Assembly (NCBI GenBank): GCA_937128475.1
Contig: CAKZML010000107.1
Span: 1-41,277, forward strand
Source: an uncultured Chromatiales bacterium
GTDB taxonomy: Bacteria; Pseudomonadota; Gammaproteobacteria; Steroidobacterales; BM003
Direction of reading: 5' to 3'
DNA length: 41,277 nt
Shown here: positions 4,017-36,220 of the stretch, piece by piece
Numbering within the stretch: position 1 is the first letter of the stretch
Layout of the letters: each line of letters starts with the position of its first letter
Program-made: the position numbers and the translations under genes
Notes under the pieces: generated by a model
Database searches by the model: none
The model's input: the letters and a program-made list of their open reading frames with translations, nothing else
Told to the model about the DNA's origin: nothing

Positions 4017-5143
4017 TATCTGGTCCCCCTGCTGCGACGATCACTTCCACTTCGTATCCCGGGATTTTCAGGGATCGCTTCCGCGGACTCTACGCTGTCG
4101 GTCGATCCGCCCATAGAACGGCCTCGTGATTCCAACAACTTATCCATGGGCAGGTAGATCAGGTTTCCGCTGCCATCGGTATCGACGATGACCTTGGACG
4201 CATTACCCAGAACTTCCTCTATCGTTTCCAGGTAAAGACGCTCACGGGTGACCCCGGGGGCCTTCTGGTACTCGGTCAGAACCGCCAGGAATCGATGGGC
4301 GTTACCTTGTGCCTCGGCGATCATCTCTTCCTTGTATGCCTGGGCTTCTTCCAATTGCCGCTGTGCAGCGCCTCGCGCCCTGGGCAGTATGTCATTCGAA
4401 TAACCTTCTGCTTCCAAACGCAGGCGGTCACGATCCTCACGAGCCTTGGTGGCATCATCCACCGCAGCCAGCACCTGCTGAGGCGGCTTGGCGTCGATCA
4501 GGTTCAAAGACGTGACTTCGATGCCTGAACCATATTCGTCCAGCGTCAGCTGAAGCAGGTCCTTGGCCTTGACCACAAGTTCCTCGCGCCCTTCGCCCAA
4601 CACGAGTTCTGCATTGGCCTTACCCACCACTTCCCTGATGGCGCTTTCGCTCACATCCTGGAGGGTCTGGCTGGGATTACGAATATTGAACAAGACTTTG
4701 TTGATGTCGGCATAACGGAACTGCACGCTCATGGCGATATCCACGATGTTTTCATCCGCGGTCAGCATCTGGGTCTTGTAGTCAAAGCGCTGGATGCTCG
4801 ACACATTAACCTTTTCGACAGTTTCAATGGGCCATGGCCGCCAGTGCAGGCCGGGCATTGTTGTCCGGTTTGCCGCGCCAAAGCGCAGCACGACGCCCCG
4901 CTCCGATGCATCCAGCGAGTAAAACCCACCAGCAATCCAGGCGACCAGCAACAGGCCAAGGATGACAAGCACGCCTTTGCCGCCGCTATTCTTTCCCTCT
5001 CCGGAGCCTGATCCACCACCGCCAAAAATGGCGCCGAAGCGCTTCTGGAGATTACGGACGATTTCATCCAGGTCTGGGGGTCCTTCCTGACCACGGGGCT
5101 TGCCCCACGGATTCTCATCTTTTCCCGGTTCATTCCAAGACAT
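4016..5143 (-). CDS. hflK: FtsH protease modulator HflK (SPFH/band 7 family)
   Basis: HflK is the partner of HflC in the FtsH-associated membrane complex. The 375-aa reading starting MSWNEPGKDENPWG has the usual cytoplasmic N-terminus with PWG and a glycine-rich tract (residues about 44-58), one membrane helix (about 61-79), then the SPFH domain and a helical arm. An open frame extends 46 codons further upstream, but the ATG at 5143 matches known HflK N-termini and has GGAAGAAG in front. The C-terminus is rich in Ser, Gly and Arg. It lies 37 bp after hflX. Confidence 0.95.
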   Translation of the reverse strand: MSWNEPGKDENPWGKPRGQEGPPDLDEIVRNLQKRFGAIFGGGGSGSGEGKNSGGKGVLVILGLLLVAWIAGGFYSLDASERGVVLRFGAANRTTMPGLHWRPWPIETVEKVNVSSIQRFDYKTQMLTADENIVDIAMSVQFRYADINKVLFNIRNPSQTLQDVSESAIREVVGKANAELVLGEGREELVVKAKDLLQLTLDEYGSGIEVTSLNLIDAKPPQQVLAAVDDATKAREDRDRLRLEAEGYSNDILPRARGAAQRQLEEAQAYKEEMIAEAQGNAHRFLAVLTEYQKAPGVTRERLYLETIEEVLGNASKVIVDTDGSGNLIYLPMDKLLESRGRSMGGSTDSVESAEAIPENPGIRSGSDRRSRGTR

Positions 5144-35118: not shown

Positions 35119-35937
35119 TTAGAAATCACGAAAATGCCGTTTGCCATCCAGCGCCTTTTGATACTCGTTTTTGCTCAATATGTTCTCGCCTAACTGCATG
35201 TCGGTTTTACAAATCGATTTTATGAAAGCCTCCATGTTTTCAGTACTACTTAATACCTCATCAGTAAGGTAGTTAACATCCACGTTGATGCAGACCGCTG
35301 CAACAAGACCATCGGGGTCCCGAAATATTGGAATCGTCGTACATTTGAATTTGCGTGCGCCAATATTGAGTTCGTAATTCAGTTTGTCCTGCTTCAATTC
35401 TCTTCGAGTCTTCAAATCAAGCACCAAATTGGTAGCAGGCGCCCCAATTTCTCGACCCGTGACGTTGTTCCTGATGCACGAAAGCGCGTGCATAGGATTC
35501 GTAAGATCATGCAAAATAATCTCGATCCCGGTGTCCGGAAAGCTTTCTCCAATAAGCCTTACAATCCGATCAAAATTCCTCAGAAACTTATCTCTGTCAT
35601 TTTTGATCTTGGCGCCGTCATAGCGGTTGTATAGCTTCTTGTAGCGACGCTTTGCGACAGCTGATAATTTGTTCTCAACATCACTCTGATTCCCAACCAG
35701 AATGAGTTGGCGGGCAGCAATATTATTGCGATGCTTCAGCAGGTAATCTACAGCCCGGAGAAATTTCACGTCATCGAAAAAGACGGATTTCGTCTCATCT
35801 ATCCCAAACGGATAGAAGTCGTACTCTTCCAGGTTTTGCCCGTTCTGTGACTGCCGTTCGCGGTAGATTCCCCAAAGGTAGCCACCGGCCACCAATACTG
35901 CAGAAGCAAGTAGATTTATCGCGAGTTCGGCAAACAT
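35119..35937 (-). CDS. Membrane-anchored protein with a YheO-type PAS domain and an unassigned N-terminal region
   Basis: A 272-aa protein with one N-terminal membrane helix (residues about 4-24), an unassigned segment (about 33-115) starting EEYDFYPFGIDE and rich in Lys, Arg and Asp, then a YheO-like PAS domain (about 120-225). The PAS part shows GIEIILHDLTNP, VTGREIGAPATNLVLDL and a final strand AVCINVDVNYL, all typical of YheO/DadR-like sensors, yet no helix-turn-helix follows as it does in YheO. The C-terminus ends GKRHFRDF. The ATG at 35937 has GGAG 9 bases upstream; an upstream TTG frame is less likely. GC content of sampled lines is 35-47%, lower than the flanks. Role unknown; a ligand sensor at the membrane is an inference. 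Confidence 0.8.
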   Translation of the reverse strand: MFAELAINLLASAVLVAGGYLWGIYRERQSQNGQNLEEYDFYPFGIDETKSVFFDDVKFLRAVDYLLKHRNNIAARQLILVGNQSDVENKLSAVAKRRYKKLYNRYDGAKIKNDRDKFLRNFDRIVRLIGESFPDTGIEIILHDLTNPMHALSCIRNNVTGREIGAPATNLVLDLKTRRELKQDKLNYELNIGARKFKCTTIPIFRDPDGLVAAVCINVDVNYLTDEVLSSTENMEAFIKSICKTDMQLGENILSKNEYQKALDGKRHFRDF

Positions 35938-36220
35938 AAGTCGGGTCTCCACTAAACAATACTGAACCGAAGTTCGAAAAGTTATGGGTTCCGGCCCTTT
36001 CCCATCATGTGTCAAAATCGGACACTGGAATCAGTCTAGTACAGTATTGCAGGAATGTCCGCTTTGGGTCGTAAGCCGGCACTCGCGTTAATGCTCTCCA
36101 AGCTCGATGACGCGTCGCCTCAGACGCCCAACTGTCCTGCATCGAATCACAGGCACTGGATATGGATGCCAATTCTTGTGACTTCGTTACAATGCTCGAA
36201 AGTCACTCAGGATCACCGAT
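35938..36220. promoter_or_regulatory. Divergent intergenic region between the PAS protein and the DapA-like gene
   Basis: This 283-bp region should hold both promoters. On the plus strand a TACAAT hexamer lies about 24 bases before the DapA-like ATG, with AGGA 8 bases before the start codon serving as ribosome binding site. No matching -35 was found at normal spacing. On the minus strand a TTGACA occurs about 80 bases upstream of the PAS gene without a good -10. These are weak candidates only. Confidence 0.3.

Follow-up and report, generated by a model that had tools for sequence, protein, structure and literature searches.

A membrane-tethered PAS_6 protein with a conserved C-terminal tail, and its relatives with fused cyclase or ATPase domains

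What does a YheO-like PAS domain do in a protein that is anchored to the membrane and has no DNA-binding domain? The family of this domain, PAS_6, has been described in five architectures, of which PAS6-HTH is the most abundant, and the signal that it senses is unknown (PMC4519771). The question is raised by a gene in a 41,277-nucleotide stretch of DNA from an uncultured Chromatiales bacterium (the whole of which is called the window here). A first-pass annotation had suggested that the YheO sensor fold may serve another purpose here, for example as a membrane ligand sensor or in a fragment of a larger signalling protein that had lost its effector domain.

An intact gene of a membrane-tethered lineage

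The gene (35119-35937, minus strand) is complete, with an ATG start and a TAA stop, and encodes a membrane-tethered PAS_6 protein of 272 residues, as judged from the open reading frame and the alignment of homologues. The ATG is preferred over a TTG that would extend the reading frame to 36015, because homologues begin at the ATG methionine and share its first residues and because an RBS-like GGAG (35947-35950, minus strand), read from the sequence, precedes it by 9 nt; the longer version finds no support. Scans for promoters and terminators around the gene gave nothing exceeding chance. Its GC content (45.3%) and GC3 (50.7%) are the lowest among the 24 long ORFs of the window, the others having values of 52-62% and 55-75%, respectively. 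The low GC is compatible with horizontal acquisition.

The protein begins with a transmembrane helix (residues ~5-24; 35866-35925, minus strand), which is apparent from the sequence, lies within a predicted AlphaFold2 helix of residues 2-31 and is common to the homologues. Directly after it stands a basic YRER, and by the positive-inside rule the remainder of the protein is therefore predicted to be cytoplasmic. A conserved N-terminal region with a LEEYDFYPF motif and helices (residues 36-118; 35584-35832, minus strand), defined by alignment and yielding no relative in Pfam or PDB searches, leads into the YheO-like PAS domain (residues 119-225; 35263-35583, minus strand), which is matched by the PAS_6 profile of Pfam with an E-value of 4.5e-19 (68.9 bits versus a curated cut-off of 27) and shows a PAS fold in structure comparison. 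Beyond this domain the reading frame continues for 47 residues, made up of a linker found to be weakly conserved when identities are compared by segment (residues 226-244; 35206-35262, minus strand) and a conserved C-terminal motif (residues 245-271, the TDMQLGENILSKNEYQKALDGKRHFRD region; 35125-35205, minus strand), which in relatives directly precedes a cyclase or an AAA ATPase. No helix-turn-helix family was found by Pfam or NCBIfam, the latter giving no match at all. The layout that the first-pass annotation had read, with one membrane helix, an N-terminal region of about 80 residues (here ~83), a YheO-type PAS domain and a GKRHFRDF end without a DNA-binding domain, is thus upheld.

The AlphaFold2 model (31 rows, mean pLDDT 78) consists of the long N-terminal helix, two short strands and four helices, and then the PAS fold. 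In a structure comparison against the PDB, residues 112-233 resemble PAS and CACHE-type sensor domains, including sporulation kinase D (Z 9.3) and the Aer2 PAS domain (Z 8.3), matches that indicate the fold only. Structure prediction and profile searches matched the N-terminal region to no known family or fold: across 31 relatives, no Pfam match to residues 36-118 rose above noise, and for residues 36-135 nothing significant was returned by Pfam, a PDB sequence profile or Foldseek (best E 2.3), the best VIA-align Z being 5.9. This absence of a fold assignment is not proof of a new fold. None of the profile searches placed the protein as a whole in a characterised family.

With the YheO/Cj1387c-type PAS_6-HTH regulators the window protein shares the PAS_6 domain, in which H143, G161-R162, T169, Y188, K198 and the CIN-D motif are conserved, but it differs from them in having no helix-turn-helix and in possessing the membrane helix, the extra N-terminal region and the conserved tail. 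PAS_6-HTH matches set in only at about residue 100-140, and searches found the N-terminal region in the membrane-tethered lineage alone, not as an ordinary part of YheO proteins.

One scan of 84,980 genomes returned 47 loci, most of them full-length. Full-length homologues (47-68% identity) agree with the window protein in their start, their N-terminal region and a GKRHFxD end, and are distributed over Gamma- and Alphaproteobacteria, Verrucomicrobiota, Bacteroidota, Actinomycetota and Acidobacteriota (at least five phyla). Invariant in the 31-row alignment are Y39, F41, Y42 and P43 of the N-terminal motif, the PAS core, and E251, L254, E258, G265 and H268 of the C-terminal motif. The window protein combines the transmembrane helix, EEYDFYPF region, PAS_6 domain and ENILSKxEY..GKRHF tail, as do the members of a clade with fused effectors described below. 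Both its architecture and its family membership are well supported; the gene is an intact member of a PAS_6 family distinct from the YheO transcription regulators, and not a fragment.

The distribution of this family is patchy. Within the window's order it was found in 11 of 346 genomes (three decayed copies and eight full-length ones, that of the window among them), and elsewhere in 1 of 345 genomes of one Bacteroidota class and in 2 of 236 of one Verrucomicrobiota class; it was not found in two other searched species of the window's genus, and the window genome holds no second PAS_6. Together with the low GC, this spread suggests repeated transfer and loss of the gene. The three decayed copies (L064:7600-7850, L100:650-1141 and L101 near 4266-4499) have all kept the C-terminal end, and their decay implies that the gene is dispensable in the window's order. 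The copy in L064 shows a clean deletion of residues ~96-221. A defence or phage origin was rejected: PADLOC yielded no more than a weak match to Cas13Nterm (E 0.0025), PHROGs and viral contigs gave none, and phage records matched only in PAS_6 stretches.

Effector domains beyond the conserved tail

The sensor module of the window protein continues into a class III cyclase domain in relatives from Acidimicrobiia and from one Acidobacteriota genome, and the nucleotide cyclase that had been suggested as a C-terminal effector of homologues is thus present in relatives. In a set of 247 genomes, comprising the Acidimicrobiia (class of G436) and the Acidobacteriota genome, 10/10 copies are longer than the window protein, eight by a terminal class III cyclase and two (L071, L073) by a terminal AAA ATPase. 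Cyclase fusions were located at L035, L036, L038-L040, L042, L072 and L074-L076; Guanylate_cyc was identified by Pfam in L036 and L039 and AAA in L071, the remaining fusions being judged by alignment or by their ends. Both effector types start past one GKRHFLDEAIR junction, and the window protein stops where the effectors begin. At L071 and L073, the AAA ATPase stands in place of the cyclase after an identical GKRHFLDEAIR sequence. The metal, base and transition-state residues of six aligned fused cyclases (FSDIV, LKxxGDG, GDVxGDGVNxASR) are invariant; in adenylyl cyclases these residues bind metal, recognise ATP and stabilise the transition state. The Acidimicrobiia and Acidobacteriota relatives are accordingly class III adenylyl cyclases with N-terminal sensors and intact catalytic residues, whereas the window protein is without a Guanylate_cyc catalytic domain by Pfam and is therefore not a cyclase.

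When a distant plasmid clade served as outgroup of the tree, the effector-fused proteins came out as a single clade (100/100) within the stand-alone ones; the nesting is weaker in a reduced tree (86/63 and 81/70). Because the fused clade is nested in this manner and the outgroup has no fused effector, the effectors were more probably gained than lost. The window protein is most improbably a relic, that is, the sensor half of a fused cyclase drifting after deletion of its effector: the low GC and the three decayed copies in the window's order would agree with such an origin, but the window copy is intact and matches the conserved sites throughout, and it ends at a position common to dozens of stand-alone homologues. 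The first-pass interpretation is therefore retained in part. A different use of the YheO fold, membrane-anchored and without DNA-binding domain, and the existence of cyclase-bearing homologues are supported, while the fragment with a lost effector is not, the stand-alone forms being widespread and conserved.

Also significant is the conservation of the tail itself. Compared with the effector-fused proteins, the window protein is 43% identical in the N-terminal region, 64% in the PAS domain, 24% in the linker and 67% in the last 27 residues, and compared with stand-alone proteins these last residues are 76% identical; across both comparisons, the PAS domain is 64-65% and the linker between PAS domain and tail 24-33% identical. 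Since the tail is conserved like the PAS domain, and lies beyond a poorly conserved linker, it is selected even with nothing behind it, and this conservation is the main argument that stand-alone members may still signal through it.

Gene neighbourhoods and candidate partners

The window gene is solitary, flanked by an MFS/Atg22-like transporter gene at a distance of 337 bp and, on the other strand, by a DHDPS-family gene; beyond the latter, a GTPase resembling peptide chain release factor 3 (RF3) was read from the sequence. A comparison of neighbourhoods showed no conserved neighbour among the loci of the window's order. No RidA/L-PSP gene adjoins the window gene, unlike in the cj1387c orthologues, where such a gene is adjacent (PMC4519771).

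In Chthoniobacterales (Udaeobacter and relatives; L006, L008, L009, L012 and L018-L032), the PAS gene lies within a tetrahydrobiopterin (BH4)/phenylalanine-catabolism cluster that comprises HPPD, a homogentisate-dioxygenase-like gene (weak NCBIfam match), FolE, PTPS, SDR, the PAS gene and a convergent phenylalanine hydroxylase gene, with GTP cyclohydrolase I, PTPS, SDR and PAS forming a same-strand run. The PTPS protein of this cluster carries three PTPS domains in a single chain. The adjacency of the PAS gene to SDR or PTPS in 24/24 loci having upstream context, and the overlap by 19 bases of a Streptomyces plasmid relative with a TauD dioxygenase gene, would fit a metabolite-binding accessory protein, one that takes up an aromatic amino acid or a pterin at the membrane in order to regulate or assemble the enzymes nearby, rather than to signal. 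Such a role is unlikely, however, given that the Verrucomicrobial loci are close kin and not independent, that gammaproteobacterial, Bacteroidota and Actinomycetota loci are without the cluster, and that the fused effectors point to signalling. Moreover, no biopterin hydroxylase was found in the window genome, and the BH4/phenylalanine link is therefore not general. TolB and TPR proteins (near L005 and L096, and in Verrucomicrobial upstream cyclase-TPR genes) were dropped as partners, and their proximity was not used as evidence, because such genes are numerous in these genomes.

A distant clade (~30% identity), most of whose members are carried by conjugative plasmids of Betaproteobacteria, shares the layout of transmembrane helix, N-terminal region and PAS_6, and profile comparison with the window's family gave E-values of 6e-39 for the whole protein and 7.3e-15 for the N-terminal region. 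On most plasmids examined, the PAS_6 gene is followed by genes for DUF1805, a histidine kinase and a LuxR-type regulator; a hybrid kinase follows it in a Marinobacter relative, and on the Azospira plasmid pAZI09 (L104) a restriction-modification-like locus replaces DUF1805 and the kinase. Proteins of this cassette (e.g. Acidovorax sp. JS42 pAOVO01, Ajs_4191-4188) resemble the window protein in the transmembrane helix, the homologous N-terminal region, the PAS_6 domain and the absence of a helix-turn-helix, but differ in their C-terminal tail and in having a kinase in trans next door, no DUF1805 or histidine kinase gene adjoining the window gene. At L056, L057, L058, L103 and L105, membrane PAS_6, DUF1805, histidine kinase and an opposing LuxR-type regulator lie near transfer genes of conjugative or mobilizable plasmids, and control of transfer is a possible function of the cassette. 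In the Streptomyces plasmid relative (L060:7000-8705), whose start overlaps the TauD/TfdA dioxygenase gene, a Rid family gene is nearby.

The cyclase is the commonest fused partner, and class III cyclases were found in 18/19 other family-carrying genomes (fused forms included) as well as in the window genome. The tail might thus dock on a stand-alone class III cyclase and control in trans how much cAMP it makes, in the way that the fused form acts in cis. This is nevertheless a doubtful proposition: co-occurrence is weak evidence where, as in these groups, many genomes encode class III cyclases, none is adjacent in the window's order, and none was found in G429, a MAG with a stand-alone copy. 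The two in the window genome (G000) lie on other contigs and carry their own sensors, being CHASE2- and FHA-linked as read from the sequence.

Proposed signalling and its significance

The best reading of the window protein, to which we assign a probability of roughly 0.5, is a membrane-tethered cytosolic ligand sensor that signals in trans through its C-terminal tail. The N-terminal helix would anchor the protein to the inner membrane, and the EEYDFYPF/helical region and the PAS domain would form the input unit, the PAS pocket probably binding a small metabolite, to judge from its fold. The conserved tail (ENILSKDEYxxALxGKRHFxD) would serve for output: in relatives the chain runs on from it into a class III adenylyl cyclase or an AAA ATPase, and stand-alone members, the window protein among them, probably use it to contact a separate, putative effector. 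Signalling is favoured by the single junction serving different effectors and by the distant clade with a histidine kinase in trans. Against the best reading count the solitary position of the window gene in neighbourhoods that are not conserved in its order, the location of both class III cyclases on other contigs, the stand-alone copy of G429, a MAG in which no cyclase was found, and the three decayed copies. A further, tentative reading is that of a 'plug-in' sensor moving between phyla, in which the tail would be a universal output handle, coupled either in cis, to a cyclase or an AAA ATPase, or to a partner in trans, and the window protein would be the free docking form.

Literature searches for links of YheO to adenylate cyclases, of PAS_6 to cyclases and of DUF1805 to PAS domains, in which coverage of journals was partial, returned nothing relevant. 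The membrane-tethered PAS_6 architecture with optional effectors is not described in the literature searched, while the sensor domain itself is known. In the literature found, PAS_6 appears almost only as PAS-HTH, and the present family adds a second lineage that is membrane-bound and without DNA binding. As cyclase and ATPase outputs are swapped onto one junction, the signal-transfer element becomes directly testable by cutting or grafting the tail. The cAMP output of the fused relatives is a possible read-out for the PAS_6 ligand, for which the Verrucomicrobial gene cluster supplies candidates in pterins and the catabolites of phenylalanine and tyrosine.
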